Of a DNA stretch of 9,825 nucleotides, positions 3,001 through 6,646 are shown one piece after another. A program made the translations under genes and the position numbers. Each line of letters starts with the position of its first letter. Position 1 is the first letter of the stretch. Below the pieces are notes generated by a model. That model was not told the DNA's origin. It made no database searches and saw nothing but the letters and a program-made list of their open reading frames with translations. The stretch lies in NCBI GenBank assembly GCA_002841685.1, contig PHAM01000063.1, positions 1-9,825 of the forward strand, read 5' to 3'. Source of the DNA: Elusimicrobia bacterium HGW-Elusimicrobia-2 (GTDB taxonomy: Bacteria > CG03).

Positions 3001-3450
3001 ACGGATAATAACGGTTATTTCAGTTTAGCCGGTGTTCCGGGAGGTAACTATAGTCTTTATGCGCAATCCGGCGGGACCAACCTTAATATAGGCGACGGCT
3101 ACACGACCTGCTACAGTTACGAGCCGCTCGGCGGGAATAAAAACAGTCAGAACTTTTATTTTGGTTCAGCCGTTTTTGAGCAAAATGATTTCAAGATATA
3201 CGGAAATGTTTTTGACCCGAGAACCGAAAGCTGCGGAATTAAATTCATCGCTGCCGCTAATGACAACGTTGATGTTAAAATTTATGATGCGGCCGGGCGG
3301 CTTATCAGGAATTTCCGGGAAACGACAGGAGTATTTTCATGGGACGGCAGGGACAAGGACGGGATAGTGGTAGTAAATGGGGTTTATTACGTGCACATAA
3401 AAAGCAACGGCATAGACAAAACCCATCCCGTCGCGATATTTAAGAAATGA
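1..3450 (+). CDS. Large mosaic secreted surface protein with NHL, Ig-like, beta-helix and FlgD-like C-terminal domains (5' end outside window)
   Basis: The frame is open from base 1, so the gene is 5'-truncated by the window; the GTG at 145 is an internal Val codon, not a start. 1149 residues are visible (numbered from base 1). Residues 1-43 match an NHL repeat (AGYNGDD...GVCVDSSGNIFIAD...NNRIRKV). Four Ig-like modules start with N-[NT]-[AS]-P-x-L-[ST]-W and contain YYFEAYD or a variant: residues 45-168, 169-291, 629-754 and 755-872. Between modules 2 and 3 lies a right-handed parallel beta-helix (about 292-628) with recurring NTIS/NAIL-x-N-x-x-GIY turns and a closing GNWWGT motif, as in NosD/PbH1 proteins. 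Two carboxypeptidase-regulatory-like modules follow (SGYVLDNSSKPIAGVKV near 875; SGYCYDSNSNPFGSVYV near 971). The last ~89 residues resemble the FlgD-like/T9SS type A C-terminus (VKIYDAAGRLIRNF, FSWDGRDKDG, NGVYYVHI). Likely an exported adhesin or surface-layer protein; ligand unknown. The stop overlaps the next start. Confidence 0.9.
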   Translation, partial: AGYNGDDISATSANLYYPYGVCVDSSGNIFIADCSNNRIRKVFFNNAPVLSWTGESGYESDGLNPETGDTSTNFVYRVMYTDADNNPPLAGGVHIFKGTVEIENSPFTLAEVDPLDTNYVDGKLYTSTITITLSPGNDYTYYFEAYDSYSAQATGEATSPPVDAPDVSNNAPVLSWTGETGYESDGLEPETGDTATNFAYRVMYMDTDNDAPYSGYPRVVILKGGSQISGSPYTMNYVSGSYSAGAIYTLTTALSQLGTDYTYYFEAYDSNSAAATGQPTTLVYAPDVSEGGTYVSGLISVNTTWSAANSPYIVTANAAVAQGVTLTVEPGVTVKFSTGTYLQIQGCLNAQGTSSNKIVFTSRQGTPAPGDWQYIKFNDTSDDANCVIKFAEIKYADFGIYCTDASPSIGENTISNNNYGIYYNGGSSIISSNTISGNSYCGIGIFDYSSLPLVSNNVISNNGSYGVYTTALAMIYNNAISSNNTGIYSIGNHTVSKNAILNNVYGIRCLWYMTASRNTILNNDYGIYFSGGGGISITSNTISYNGKGIYVGDSTYPPSITANNIDNSTGTYNIENQAANDINATGNWWGTTDTGVIDSRIFDYYDDFNYGKVLYTPIATSEINIVSPNTAPALSWLGAGYTGYESDGINYEVGTTTTVFTYKVQYTDADGDAPASGYPKAYILKGGTTVQTLTMEYVSGTYSAGAFYSTSTKLSAAGSDYTYYFEAYDDHDGSGDIAAGPPTGSVDAPDVTVGNNSPTLTWVGTAGYEADGVNPESGDTNTSFIFKVKYTDLDNDAPMSEYPRGDLGLDGYWYMSEEDYLDTNYADGKIYKFETCLDTTRDGYFFTAYDANSNIASGEATAAKGGPAVSAPGYYSISGYVLDNSSKPIAGVKVELWADAGHTNRIMEQVSDATGFYVFNELTLYNYYQAAPASANYTFSPASLGADSLSGSLTGQNFFGTPVGANTYAISGYCYDSNSNPFGSVYVYLYYGGTTYYNTYTDNNGYFSLAGVPGGNYSLYAQSGGTNLNIGDGYTTCYSYEPLGGNKNSQNFYFGSAVFEQNDFKIYGNVFDPRTESCGIKFIAAANDNVDVKIYDAAGRLIRNFRETTGVFSWDGRDKDGIVVVNGVYYVHIKSNGIDKTHPVAIFKK
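133..873 (+). repeat. Tandem pair of Ig-like modules, nearly identical DNA at their starts
   Basis: Copy 1 runs 133-504 and copy 2 runs 505-873 inside the mosaic surface gene. The first 57 bases of each (133-189 and 505-561) differ at only two positions, and the segment coding for YTYYFEAYDS is also close. Later parts diverge more. This fits a recent duplication or ongoing gene conversion between module starts. Confidence 0.85.
1885..2616 (+). repeat. Second tandem pair of the same Ig-like module, more diverged
   Basis: Copy 3 (1885-2262, starting NTAPALSW) and copy 4 (2263-2616, starting NNSPTLTW) share with copies 1-2 the GYESDG/GYEADG motif, a YTDxDxDAP segment and the FEAYD/FTAYD strand. 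DNA identity to copies 1-2 is visibly lower. Copy 3 has an insertion (DDHDGSGDIAAGPP). Copy 4 has lost YYFEAYD in favour of YFFTAYD. The beta-helix domain separates this pair from the first pair. Confidence 0.8.
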
Positions 3451-3743
3451 ACGAAAATCAGATTTTGGATAAAGCGGTTGATATTTTAGCCGGCGAGCTT
3501 AATCCGAAAAAAATTCTGCTTTTCGGCTCCCGCGCGAAAGGAAAAAATTCAAAGAACGCCGATTTTGATATAGCGGTTGATGCCGACGCGCCGGATATAA
3601 GGGAACAAAGAAAATTGGAGGAAAAATTGGAGGAAATATCAGGCCTGCATAAAATTGATATCGTATATCTCGGAAGCGTGGAAGATGATTTCAAGAGAAT
3701 TGTTATAAAAACGGGGAAAGTGATTTATGCAAGAGGAAATTGA
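3447..3743 (+). CDS. mntA: MntA-type minimal nucleotidyltransferase (antitoxin-like, HI0073 family)
   Basis: A 98-residue protein, the usual size for stand-alone minimal nucleotidyltransferases. The catalytic signature is complete: G27-S28 in LFGSRAKG, D39 and D41 in ADFDIAV, and a third acidic residue D71 in HKIDIVYL. The C-terminal tail IVIKTGKVIYAR matches the family's usual end. Characterised MntA antitoxins transfer AMP to a tyrosine of the neighbouring HEPN protein and so silence it; here the HEPN-family partner follows directly. The ATG at 3447 shares bases with the TGA of the surface-protein gene (ATGA, 4-base overlap). No convincing Shine-Dalgarno lies upstream, so translation probably depends on termination-reinitiation. 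It overlaps the next gene by 17 bases. The toxin-antitoxin role is inferred; the fold and active site are read directly. Confidence 0.88.
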   Translation: MNENQILDKAVDILAGELNPKKILLFGSRAKGKNSKNADFDIAVDADAPDIREQRKLEEKLEEISGLHKIDIVYLGSVEDDFKRIVIKTGKVIYARGN

Positions 3744-4119
3744 GCTTTCGTTAAAAAAATTAGAAGACGCCTTTTCCCGTCTTAAAGAATCCGTGGAAAT
3801 TGCTTCCAGCGAACTTGAGAAGGACGGCTCTATACAGAGGTTTGAATTTACATTTGAGTTGCTCTGGAAAACATTAAAGATATTTCTTGAAGAAGAAAAA
3901 GGGGTTATCTGCCACGCGCCGAAAGATTGTTTGAAAGAGGCTTTCAGGGTGGAGTGGATAGAGGGAGAAGATATTTTTCTGGACATGCTTAAAGACAGGA
4001 ATAGAACTTCTCACATTTACAACAAATCTATGGCGGAAGAAATATTTAGCAGAATTAAAGGCGAGTATGCCGGAGCGATAGAAAAGGTCGTGAAGAAATT
4101 GAAAGAGAGTCAAAAGTGA
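3727..4119 (+). CDS. HEPN-fold partner of MntA, HI0074 / nucleotidyltransferase substrate-binding family
   Basis: A 130-residue, largely helical protein. It carries the HI0074-family hallmarks RFEFTFELLWKTLKIFLEEE (residues 38-57) and DMLKDRNRTSHIYN (86-99). The latter contains R91-x4-H96-x-Y98, the RX4HXY motif in which Arg and His form the HEPN RNase site and Tyr is the residue AMPylated by MntA in the studied Shewanella pair. All three residues are present, so the protein is not obviously inactivated. The start at 3727 has GGGGA at 3713-3717, nine bases upstream. The gene overlaps the nucleotidyltransferase by 17 bases and its TGA overlaps the GTG start of the next gene. It could be a toxin (RNase) or, as originally proposed for HI0074, a substrate-binding subunit; sequence does not decide between these. 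Confidence 0.87.
   Translation: MQEEIELSLKKLEDAFSRLKESVEIASSELEKDGSIQRFEFTFELLWKTLKIFLEEEKGVICHAPKDCLKEAFRVEWIEGEDIFLDMLKDRNRTSHIYNKSMAEEIFSRIKGEYAGAIEKVVKKLKESQK
4105..4109 (+). promoter_or_regulatory. Ribosome binding site for the GTG-started barrel gene
   Basis: GAGAG lies six bases before the GTG at 4116. Together with the signal peptide that begins directly at this codon (MKSRRKIF...), it supports the unusual GTG start inside the end of the HEPN gene. The match to AGGAGG is only moderate. Confidence 0.45.
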
Positions 4120-5585
4120 AATCGCGCCGAAAAATATTTTATTTGTTTTTGATTTTTAATTTTACATTTTTTATTTTGCGGGAGGCGGGAGCTGAAACAA
4201 CCGCCTGCAGTTATATGTATTACAACCAGTCGCCGGTAAGTATGGGGATGGGCGGGCTGGATGATATTTTTGAAGCTTCGCCTGGAGCATCCGGCAATCC
4301 GGCTCTTCTTGCTTTCTGCGAGGGAGGTGAGCTGTCGGGGGGCGTGGAAAATGACGCTATGGAAGCCGCGATGAGCCGGGTGAGCGCGATTTTCAGGATA
4401 AAAAAAGCCGGTATTGCCTTCGGTGTTTTTTCCTATGAACAGAGTTTTCCCATTGTAAATTCTGACGGCACATCATATAGCGGCTTTTCGCAAAGCGGTG
4501 AAATAAACTCCCTTTCCATCGGCTACCCCATTTTGAAAAATCTGTCTTTCGGTTTGGGTATGAGAAATGTGAACGAAAGGTTTTTTGTCGCTGATTCCGA
4601 ATCCTATGATTCCGAATCCTATGCCGACAGCACTTCTTATGCGGATATGGGGCTCTTTTTCAGGCACCGGGGATTCAGGGCGGCATTTCGTGCGGCAAAT
4701 TTCGGAGAAGCGAAAATATGGGATGATGAGCCGCTGCCGTCTTACGGAGGATTTTCTATTGGTTATGCCGGAGACAGATTAAAAGCGGGAATTTCTGCAG
4801 GGAGTGATCAGGTGACGGCAATTTCCCGTCTTGGCTTGGAATACGCGCTTTCAGGCTGGTTTGCGGTTCGCGCCGGCATGGACCGGACGGATACTGCGGC
4901 GGATGGAATGTTTATGATTTCACCCTCTTTGGGTTTCAGCATTTCTTACGGTGCGTTCGCGTTTGATTTTGCCGCAGTGACGCATCCTGATTTAGGAAAC
5001 AGAGCGATGACGGCTTTAAGATATAACTGGGGCAGAAAAAAAGTGAAGCCGGCTTCCCCCGTCATTACTGAAGATAAAAAAACAAAGCCGGAGAGAACAA
5101 GGAAAGCGGCGCCGGCTGAAATAGCGCCGTTTGACGGTAAACCGGCGCAAAAAATTCCCCTGCCTGCTGCCCCGGAAGGTGAGAGGGTAAATATAGCGGT
5201 GACTGATTTTGAGGCGAGGGCGCCTCTTTCCCAGTCGGAAGCGGCGTTCATATCAGATTTTGTCAGAAGTGATTTTGTGAAGTCAGGCCGGTTTAATGTC
5301 ATAGAGAAAAACAATATGGATAAGGTGCTGGCGGAACAGGGTTTCCAGCAGACCGGCTGCTCTTCCGCCGAATGCGCGGTGGCAATCGGCAAGATTCTGA
5401 ACGTGAAACTGATGACTGTCGGGAGCTGCGGCCAGCTTCTGGGGAAATACATAATAACAATGAATATCGTGGATGTTGAAAGCGCGAAAATTATATTTTC
5501 CGATGATGCGTCAGTGGCTGACCCCAACGACCTCAGAAATAAAATAACGGAACTGATAGGGAGTTTCCTGAACACGGTAAAATAA
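4116..5585 (+). CDS. PorV/UPF0164-like outer-membrane barrel fused to a CsgG/LpoB-like domain
   Basis: 489 residues starting at GTG, with GTGA overlapping the preceding stop. Residues 1-26 form a Sec signal peptide (basic MKSRRK, hydrophobic core, AGA/E cleavage). The mature start, SPVSMGMGGLDDIFEASPGASGNPALLAF, matches the PorV/UPF0164 entry motif (GMGGA...D..A...NPA.L). Alternating strands through about residue 305 fit an outer-membrane barrel. A Lys/Pro/Ala-rich linker (about 308-352) leads to a CsgG/LpoB-like domain (about 353-489): VNIAVTDFEAR, FNVIEKNNMDKVLAEQGFQ, C415-SSAE-C420, and MNIVDVESAKIIFSD. PorV shuttles C-terminal-domain cargo in type IX secretion, and a protein with such a C-terminus lies just upstream. 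CsgG-like domains occur in envelope assembly factors. The exact function of the fusion is unknown; a role in surface display is inferred. A 15-base in-frame duplication is present at 4593-4622. Confidence 0.82.
   Translation: MKSRRKIFYLFLIFNFTFFILREAGAETTACSYMYYNQSPVSMGMGGLDDIFEASPGASGNPALLAFCEGGELSGGVENDAMEAAMSRVSAIFRIKKAGIAFGVFSYEQSFPIVNSDGTSYSGFSQSGEINSLSIGYPILKNLSFGLGMRNVNERFFVADSESYDSESYADSTSYADMGLFFRHRGFRAAFRAANFGEAKIWDDEPLPSYGGFSIGYAGDRLKAGISAGSDQVTAISRLGLEYALSGWFAVRAGMDRTDTAADGMFMISPSLGFSISYGAFAFDFAAVTHPDLGNRAMTALRYNWGRKKVKPASPVITEDKKTKPERTRKAAPAEIAPFDGKPAQKIPLPAAPEGERVNIAVTDFEARAPLSQSEAAFISDFVRSDFVKSGRFNVIEKNNMDKVLAEQGFQQTGCSSAECAVAIGKILNVKLMTVGSCGQLLGKYIITMNIVDVESAKIIFSDDASVADPNDLRNKITELIGSFLNTVK
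4593..4622 (+). repeat. Two-copy 15-base in-frame tandem repeat
   Basis: GATTCCGAATCCTAT occurs twice back to back, giving DSESY-DSESY at residues 160-169 of the barrel protein, followed by the related ADSTSYAD. The copies are identical, so this is a recent slippage product, probably in a loop between strands. Confidence 0.85.
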
Positions 5586-5587
5586 AA

Positions 5588-5613
5588 CGTGTTTGATATT
5601 TTTATCAAAAACG
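5588..5613 (+). terminator. Stem-loop immediately after the barrel gene
   Basis: Starting two bases after the stop, CGT-G-TTTGATA pairs with TATCAAA-A-ACG around a TTTT loop (10 of 11 pairs, one G-A mismatch). It is AT-rich and not followed by a U-tract, so it does not meet the classical intrinsic-terminator pattern. It may be a 3' mRNA-stabilising or weak termination structure. Confidence 0.4.
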
Positions 5614-5678
5614 GCAGGCTTTGCGCGGAGCGTGCCAGCGGCCGGCTGATTTTCAGAAAACTCGTATGAATCACACAC

Positions 5679-5777
5679 GAGGACAGTCCCCATCTACGAC
5701 ACGCCACGGCGAGCTTTCAGCCCGCCACAGGCGGACTTCGCAAGGCTCAGCTTCGTCCGTAATGGGGACAGTCCCCC
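5679..5777. repeat. REP/MITE-like palindromic element with terminal inverted repeats
   Basis: The left arm 5679-5700 (GAGGACAGTCCCCATCTACGAC) and right arm 5755-5776 are inverted copies. Positions 5679-5693 against 5762-5776 pair at 13 of 15, then TACG pairs again after a one-base bulge. The centre folds as CCGCC-ACA-GGCGG (5722-5734), and GCGA (5709-5712) pairs with TCGC (5738-5741). Both the arms and the inner stem share a midpoint near 5728, so the whole ~98 bp forms one long imperfect hairpin. GGGGACAGTCCCC at the ends is itself a small palindrome. Such elements are typically dispersed and non-autonomous, often moved by REP-associated Y1 transposases; no transposase lies in this window. 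It sits in the only long gap of the six-gene plus-strand block and overlaps the start of the next gene. Confidence 0.72.
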
Positions 5778-6646
5778 TTTTTATAATTTTTGCTTGTTTT
5801 TTTGCTGTTTTTGGCGCGGACTGGATTGCCGCTTCTGAGAATATTTTCAAAAGCGACACTATTGAATCCGGCAAAGGGAAAATAAGCAGGATCATAAGAT
5901 CCTCGGGGGATAAGCTGGACATGGGCTATAACGGCGGAGGCTTCAAGTCTTTTTCCGTGTCGCTCGGCGATATAGCCGGCCTGGGAATGGATAATCTGTC
6001 CAAACGCAAACAACACGAAAAAAGTGCCGTCGCCGCGCTCATTTATATCTCGCCCAAAAAGGGCGTGGAAAAATACATAAGAGAACTTATTAACGACGCT
6101 GATATGTGGGTGAGATGGGATGTTATCAACGCCCTTTACGCTCTCGGCGACGGTTCGGCCGGGACAATAGCCGCGATGAGCAGTCTTTTTAATGATCCCT
6201 GTCCCGACATCAGGATACAGGTTTGCCGTTTTTACGGCGCTCACGCCTCATCCACGGAAGTGAAGGCGGTGTATTCCCTCCTCTGGGATGAGAATACCGC
6301 TGTCCGGCATCAGGCGCTGGAGACACTCGCGTCAACGACGGGGACTGACGCGCTTATAAAAATTGCGGAGGCTATGCTGGAGGATGAGTCTTTTGACGTG
6401 CGGGGCTTGGCGCTGGAAATATTATTTGAGAAAAAAGCCGTGGATGAAACAAAAATATGCGGGATATTATCGGGAGATGATTCTATCCAGATGCGTCGAG
6501 CCGCCGCGGCCATACTGCTTAAAAACGGCACGGCCAAATCCATTTCCACGCTGATAAAAGCGGTGGAAGATAAAGATGAGAAGGTGTCGGAAACCGCCAG
6601 AAAAGCGCTTGAGCGGATCCGCGGCAGCTCCGATCTGCCTTTATAG
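5762..6646 (+). CDS. Exported HEAT-repeat protein
   Basis: From the ATG at 5762 the protein has 294 residues. Residues 5-19 (PLFIIFACFFAVFGA) form a hydrophobic export segment, though the usual basic n-region is missing. Residues 87-286 are six HEAT units spaced about 31-33 residues, each with a V/I/M-R helix: VRWDVINALYALGD (117), IRIQVCRFYGA (150), VRHQALETLAST (181), VRGLALEILFEK (213), MRRAAAAILLKNG (244), VSETARKALERI (275). HEAT solenoids are protein-binding scaffolds; the partner is unknown, perhaps in the periplasm. The frame continues upstream to ATG 5666 or TTG 5621, but that stretch is mostly the palindromic repeat and reads as basic, low-quality sequence, so 5762 is preferred. No start has a clear Shine-Dalgarno. 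MGTVPLF is encoded by the repeat end. The FecR gene follows 19 bases downstream. Confidence 0.8.
   Translation: MGTVPLFIIFACFFAVFGADWIAASENIFKSDTIESGKGKISRIIRSSGDKLDMGYNGGGFKSFSVSLGDIAGLGMDNLSKRKQHEKSAVAALIYISPKKGVEKYIRELINDADMWVRWDVINALYALGDGSAGTIAAMSSLFNDPCPDIRIQVCRFYGAHASSTEVKAVYSLLWDENTAVRHQALETLASTTGTDALIKIAEAMLEDESFDVRGLALEILFEKKAVDETKICGILSGDDSIQMRRAAAAILLKNGTAKSISTLIKAVEDKDEKVSETARKALERIRGSSDLPL
5764..5782 (+). terminator. Terminator-like hairpin with T-run at the right end of the palindromic element
   Basis: GGGGA (5764-5768), loop CAG, TCCCC (5772-5776), then C and five T (5778-5782). A short GC stem followed by a T-run resembles an intrinsic terminator. Unusually, it lies inside the first codons of the HEAT-repeat gene, so if active it would act as an attenuator or reduce read-through from the upstream genes. 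The five-pair stem is short and may be too weak. Confidence 0.35.

Follow-up and report, generated by a model that had tools for sequence, protein, structure and literature searches.

A palindromic mobile element probably read through in frame in the signal peptide of a HEAT-repeat protein in an Elusimicrobia genome, and its recurrence at predicted signal-peptide boundaries

In a 9,825-nucleotide stretch of DNA from an Elusimicrobia genome (the whole stretch is hereinafter called the window), a HEAT-repeat gene carries close to its 5' end a 98-bp palindromic mobile element, which is probably a nonautonomous MITE/REP-like palindrome that was inserted in frame in the signal peptide of the encoded protein and is read through from the start codon at position 5666. 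This reading is built on sequence comparisons, which show further copies of the element, empty orthologous sites, its in-frame position, a conserved upstream start, and further signal peptides that contain the element. What is new is that signal peptides have been hit repeatedly; the count of these hits is post hoc, and the export of the proteins is predicted. The features discussed below are collected in Table 1.

Table 1. Coordinates of the element, the affected gene, and the related transposase ends
Feature	Position	Strand	Basis or remark
Composite palindromic mobile element, 98 bp	5679..5776	+	Copies in G000 and congeners; orthologous sites empty in G001 and G002
Left half of outer palindrome, GAGGACAGTCCCCATCTACGA	5679..5699	+	Conserved in 46- to 47-bp minimal copies
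Right half of outer palindrome, CTTCGTCCGTAATGGGGACAGTCCCC	5751..5776	+	Conserved in minimal copies
Second, separately mobile repeat in the loop of the outer palindrome	5700..5750	+	Missing from 46- to 47-bp copies
HEAT-repeat gene from ancestral ATG 5666 through the element, 326 aa	5666..6646	+	Open frame; empty orthologues; ATGA overlap in G003 and G002
ATG proposed earlier as the start; probably an internal Met codon in the right arm	5762..5764	+	Paired; off the ancestral position
Signal-peptide hydrophobic core LFIIFACFFAVFGA, host sequence directly 3' of the element	5777..5818	+	
Scar of a lost amidohydrolase/dihydroorotase-like gene	5583..5669	+	TGA (5667-5669) overlaps ATG 5666
3' end of Y1 element, L022	L022:2131-2210		
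3' end of Y1 element, L104	L104:1921-2000		
3' end of Y1 element, L107	L107:2144-2220		
3' end of Y1 element, L110	L110:2366-2430	Reverse	

The genome from which the window was taken (G000; 1.78 Mb, 96% complete) was compared with three congeners (G001, G002, and G003, the last being its nearest relative); the named relatives of G000 are Elusimicrobia metagenome assemblies. Copies were sought in G000 by pattern, DNA, and family searches, with about 360 kb being sampled as stretches; for full copies of the outer element, every reading frame was inspected, and orthologues were found with one concatenated query. A 121-bp query recovered 14 matches in G000, one being the window itself and another a near-complete copy with 82% identity. 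The exact string GGGGACAGTCCCC occurs at six sites in this genome, and its reversed control occurs at none. The core of the inner repeat, GCGGACTTCGCAAGGCTCAGC (positions 5731 to 5751), is present at eight other G000 sites and at a few in G001 to G003, and outer elements number only a handful per genome. Neither this core repeat nor the minimal element was found in 12 other genomes of the phylum from outside the genus. The sequence-only reading of this DNA had proposed a mobile repeat, and the genome search, with further copies in G000 and the three congeners, bears this out. We also observed in G003 (G003:C42; L083, reverse strand) an element of the GGGGACAG type nested between GGTCAGGCCTTGACATTAGACAT-type inverted repeats, i.e., inside another element.

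The element has the termini GAGGACAGTCCCCATCTACG and GTAATGGGGACAGTCCCC, and its arms (5679 to 5700 and 5755 to 5776; complementary at 16 of 22 positions) and central hairpin (5722 to 5734) have their centres at 5727.5 and 5728, respectively, so that the near-common midpoint recognized earlier is real. However, the accompanying idea of a single long palindrome did not hold up, as only 22 of the 49 ungapped pairs over the 98 bp are symmetric (mean, 12.2, and standard deviation, 3.2, over all window centres), several other centres in the window outscore the claimed one, and copies without the stretch from 5700 to 5750 exist. Such minimal copies, with the form GGGGACAGTCCCCATCTACG-ACTTCGTCC-GTAATGGGGACAGTCCCC, were seen in all four genomes (G003:C59, G000:C54, G002:C54, and G001:C298); relative to them, the window copy has an additional 51 bp in the loop, and other copies have different loop inserts. 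Since the minimal copies lack the middle, the outer palindrome forms a whole without it, as an inverted dimer of GGGGACAGTCCCC units spanning 47 bp, and the middle is a second repeat lodged in its loop. We accordingly rejected one long perfect palindrome in favor of this composite build. The left half, read on the reverse strand, is TCGTAG-AT-GGGGACTGTCCTC and is thus GTAG tagged. As single-stranded DNA, the element folds with an energy of -23.5 kcal/mol (z = -4.4), which none of 200 shuffles equals, and as RNA in its context its fold has a z of -3.05 against shuffles.

The product of the HEAT-repeat gene is recognized by a HEAT_2 match (E = 1.3e-24), and its frame, as had been overlooked earlier, stays open from ATG 5666 across the whole element. 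The G003 orthologue (92% protein identity) shares both the element and its position, whereas the orthologues in G002 and G001 are empty and begin with ATG AGG AAA ATA GTT TTT GCC (MRKIVFA) and ATG AAG AAA ATA ATT TTT GCT TGT (MKKIIFAC), respectively, with the hydrophobic core following MRK or MKK directly and the n-region being shorter than in G000 and G003. The window reads ATG AAT CAC ACA CGA [element] CCC CTT TTT ATA ATT TTT GCT TGT, and the segment ATAATTTTTGCTTGT (5783 to 5797) is identical in the empty G001 orthologue. In both G003 and G002, an amidohydrolase (dihydroorotase-like) gene lies upstream, and its stop codon and the HEAT start overlap as ATGA; this start corresponds to window ATG 5666, which lies upstream of the element and in frame. 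Hence, 5666 is the ancestral start, and the insertion point of the element is 3' of it, within the signal-peptide codons. The sole match of the amidohydrolase gene in G000 is a scar of 28 codons (5583 to 5666) that is 71% identical to the C terminus of the intact G003 gene (E = 1.7e-6) and may form a 26-codon leader ORF from GTG 5589 to TGA 5669, with its stop overlapping ATG 5666. From the start to the end of the element, G000 and G003 agree at 107 of 111 nucleotides with no frameshift; codons 1 to 36 show just three codon differences, two of them synonymous, which would be consistent with coding. Translation from 5666 gives an n-region, MNHTRGQSPSTTRHGELSARHRRTSQGSASSVMGTVP, rich in Arg and His, and codons 2 to 32 include HGELSAR and TSQGSASSVMGTVPLF.

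We interpret these observations as follows. The element is an inverted dimer of GGGGACAGTCCCC units with a terminal motif of the IS200-like (Y1/HUH) type and a second repeat nested in its loop, and it would have entered the codons for the HEAT signal peptide, at the junction of the n-region with the hydrophobic core, before G000 and G003 diverged. ATG 5666 would still open the gene, with the ribosome reading the element, so that the n-region would be longer by about 33 codons (GQSPSTT...SSVMGTVP). A GGGGAC-ended Y1 transposase could have mobilized it in trans, with a putative preference for junctions of A-rich with T-rich sequence, of which the AAA-to-TTT step in signal-peptide codons would be one; the insertion may be tolerated since n-regions accept extra, mostly basic residues, and export of the HEAT protein would then continue.

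The sequence-only reading had instead proposed that the insertion replaced the original start and that the end of the repeat was co-opted for it. An ATG at 5762, followed by the codons for MGTVPLF, is indeed found in the right end of the element, and the comparison with orthologous loci free of the element, which that reading had called for, does uncover the ancestral start in the empty G002 and G001 genes; that the element altered the N terminus of a signal-peptide-bearing protein also stands. Replacement of the start was rejected for this gene on the strength of the empty orthologues, the ATGA overlap, and the in-frame ATG retained upstream, and the supposed lack of a basic n-region disappears once translation is begun there. 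In the form in which the element end supplies a new start at 5762, with the upstream part being a 5' untranslated region and ATG 5666 being unused, we regard the proposal as unlikely. It draws on the position of ATG 5762 directly before the hydrophobic core, on the IS200-like elements that do provide starts at other loci (see below), and on the loss from G000 of the coupled upstream gene, without which this genome could have switched to another HEAT start. Neither codon is well served by a Shine-Dalgarno sequence, with none at a usable distance before ATG 5762 and no strong one before ATG 5666, but in the folded RNA ATG 5762 lies within a hairpin stem with a pairing probability of at least 0.95 (probability of being unpaired, at most 0.05), and ATG 5666 is more open. 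Further, MGTVP has no basic residue, the frame from 5666 is intact in both G000 and G003, the ATGA coupling at that position is kept in G003, and parallel copies of the element in the reverse orientation (see below) have no internal in-frame ATG. Far less probable still is that the element is coincidental intergenic REP DNA, with the HEAT gene starting far downstream (the next in-frame ATG is about 85 codons on) and export being unchanged. Repeats at the beginning of genes are frequently misannotated as coding, and a caution to this effect has been given for REPs at the N termini of ORFs (PMC3733652); yet here a hydrophobic segment follows right after the element and is present in orthologues down to 35 to 42% identity, and in the empty genes a canonical signal peptide begins at the equivalent ATG.

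The reading-through of the element from ATG 5666 has parallels at three other genes (a, b, and c), where the palindrome lies in frame at the boundary between the n-region and the hydrophobic core (n/h boundary) and empty orthologues are known. In lipoprotein a of G000, the gene begins TTG AAA AGC TTT CGT AAA AAA and encodes TTG-KSFRKK[WDCPHYGRSRRWGLSP]FILAFSLIAGC, against the empty MKTRLKLYLATAAL in G003 and MKNRRKLYLTAAAL in G002; in G001, the insert is a different, GC-rich one that ends in RVVRLSPF. The coiled-coil gene b has the element in G003 and G001 and none in G000 and G002. The BamA-like (POTRA) gene c is empty in G003 (MRRFFSPLFAAAALC), contains the window-type element in G002 (MRR[...]LLFSALC), a different GGGACGTCC palindrome in G000 (MKKMGRPIFFHIHFPRIILRTSHFSLFAAAALC), and the end of a Y1-type element in G001 (MKKCRTSLFFAAAALC), i.e., three different elements at one boundary. 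In all three genes, the orientation is opposite to that of the HEAT copy, and the open frame, GDCPHYGRSRRWGLS, has no methionine; translation must therefore come from the old upstream start, which speaks for read-through in the HEAT gene as well. As a separate observation on gene b (L087 and L072), the occupation of the same boundary in G003 and G001, with absence from G000, points to either repeated insertion or clean loss.

Beyond signal peptides, orthologue comparison places the outer element in frame inside RibF and at the C terminus of a phosphomannomutase-like protein; other sites are the start of a hydrogenase maturation protease, a position nested in another repeat, and one between what we take, from sequence, to be metK and ahcY. 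The inner repeat alone is found in frame in the linkers of IF-2 (exactly 10 aa more in G000 than in G003) and DnaA. Its reading frame is shared by several unrelated proteins, giving RTSQGSA or RTSQSSA (L066, DnaA; L064, IF-2; and L055; each at about position 1501). Another copy (KLSPAKSA; L065, about position 1501; G003:C91) lies in a linker before the lipoyl-synthase-like C-terminal part of an open frame.

For a baseline, we used about 358 kb of G000 with 269 crude gene calls and a home-made signal-peptide rule, by which 80 of the calls have an N-terminal signal or anchor. Windows of 18 nucleotides at the n/h boundary make up 0.4% of bases and hold 2.9% of A-rich/T-rich junctions. Four of the nine independent outer-element sites are at such a boundary (P of about 3e-8 against 0.4% and about 8e-5 against 2.9%), with these P values being a guide only, as they are post hoc, come from nine sites and a home-made signal rule, and ignore the purging of harmful insertions. 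The clustering, though not the read-through, could also reflect survival alone, with purging elsewhere and tolerance of n-regions and no target preference, to which we give a substantial chance, if one somewhat short of even. In its favor, in-frame linkers (IF-2 and DnaA), a C terminus, and intergenic sites are occupied as well, and the flanks of the element are only moderately A/T rich (left, 41% A; right, 42% T). Against it, the boundary in the BamA-like gene was struck in three genomes, each time by a different element, and four autonomous Y1 elements are present at such boundaries; moreover, the count is in excess of the A/T-junction expectation. All of this is still compatible with strong purging elsewhere. 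This repeated landing makes the question of tolerance versus targeting testable.

These autonomous elements belong to a set of IS200-like (Y1_Tnp) genes in G000 to G003 that have terminal inverted repeats (e.g., GGGGACGGAGGTAATT, AGAAAAAGGGGACGTCCTTAATA, AAAAGGGGGACGG, and TGGGGTCAGGTCTTGACATT) and the termini GGGGACGG, GGGGACGTCC, GGGGTCAGG, or GGGACGTGC. None in these four genomes is bounded by the exact GGGGACAGTCCCCAT terminus, and thus we only infer mobilization of the palindrome in trans. Four Y1 genes (L022, L104, L107, and L110) each have directly downstream an exported or anchored protein; the 3' end of the element encodes the n-region of this protein (MIRKLGIIGKLITSVPFFLCAAFG, MRKLRTSPFSMLLIALV, MRRQIIGIFRIVRKALSTVPLFVALISG, and MKRYCHNVKHRPLLYVIFFLALAF) and contains its start, which is located at the stop of the transposase or close to it. 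Each of these 3' ends has a start codon and a basic n-region (MRKLRTSP, MIRKLGIIGKLITSVP, MRRQIIGIFRIVRKALSTVP, and MKRYCHNVKHRP), then GTCCCC, and then the hydrophobic core; for L022 and L107, transposon-free orthologues with ordinary signal peptides are known. A fifth case (L196) comes from another family of the phylum (G015), with MKLSHFHIRPLLLFLVLC read from a TTG that overlaps the transposase TGA, and no such start-supplying arrangement was seen at Y1 genes L108, L109, L193, L203, and L204. Thus, the earlier notion that the end of an element supplies a start fails for the HEAT gene, where ATG 5666 is kept, but seemingly applies to IS200-like elements elsewhere in the genus. Tentatively, GGGGAC-ended IS200-like elements and their MITEs might home on signal-peptide codons, with the 3' end of the autonomous form giving a start codon and basic residues, rebuilding the signal peptide, and coupling its translation to the transposase gene. 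If Y1 elements do carry spare starts and n-regions, a transposon could enter an important exported gene without destroying it, becoming translationally coupled to it. Separately, in three congeners (L021:2422-2460, L105, and L106), a nucleotidyltransferase-like gene takes its start codon (MSRPDPI) from a GGGGTCAGG-ended Y1 element.

In-frame palindromic elements inside proteins are best known from Rickettsia, and REPs typically occur in hundreds of copies per genome, with some known REPs being intragenic. Both the Rickettsia palindromic elements (RPEs) and intragenic REPs furnish precedents for in-frame palindromes (PMC3733652, PMC10969869). As outlined in these two articles, RPEs (Ogata et al. 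2000) are palindromes of about 100 to 150 bp that occur in frame in unrelated protein genes and add a recurrent peptide, and proteins with an N-terminal RPE-1 are reported to be expressed. Like RPEs, the element described here is palindromic, has several copies per genome, and, by comparison with empty orthologues, is in frame in unrelated proteins (HEAT, lipoprotein, BamA-like, RibF, the phosphomannomutase-like C terminus, and IF-2); unlike RPEs, which we compared by their description, it comes from another phylum, has a low copy number, and is concentrated at the n/h boundary of signal peptides. A second comparison is with Y1 transposases flanked by terminal inverted repeats (TIRs) (TIRYT/RAYT-type; TIRtrons), whose TIRs share GGGGWSAS and occur as dimeric TIR repeats (PMC3733652). 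The ends of the element, GGGGACAG, fit GGGGWSAS, its organization is dimeric, and the same genomes contain Y1 transposases whose terminal repeats have GGGGAC or GGGGTC, but it differs from a TIR-dimer MITE of a TIRYT in the want of a Y1 gene with the same termini and in its nested second repeat. It also resembles GTAG/CGTC-tagged REPs, BIMEs, and REPINs in consisting of two inverted hairpin units, each with a tag (left unit, GTAG-AT-GGGGACTGTCCTC on the reverse strand; right unit, GTAAT-GGGGACAGTCCCC, with a degenerate GTAA/CGTC stretch), and departs from REPs in having a handful of copies per genome. Its best classification is as a low-copy MITE/REP-like element showing RPE-like in-frame insertion. 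In the open-access literature, we found no paper on RAYT/REP insertion in signal peptides or on the string GGGGACAGTCCCC. In-frame palindromes with clean empty sites are seen here in an uncultured lineage of a phylum other than that of Rickettsia. Elsewhere in the window (3447 to 4119), a small nucleotidyltransferase (Polbeta) overlaps an NTase substrate-binding-like protein, forming a pair with an MNT/HEPN-type arrangement.
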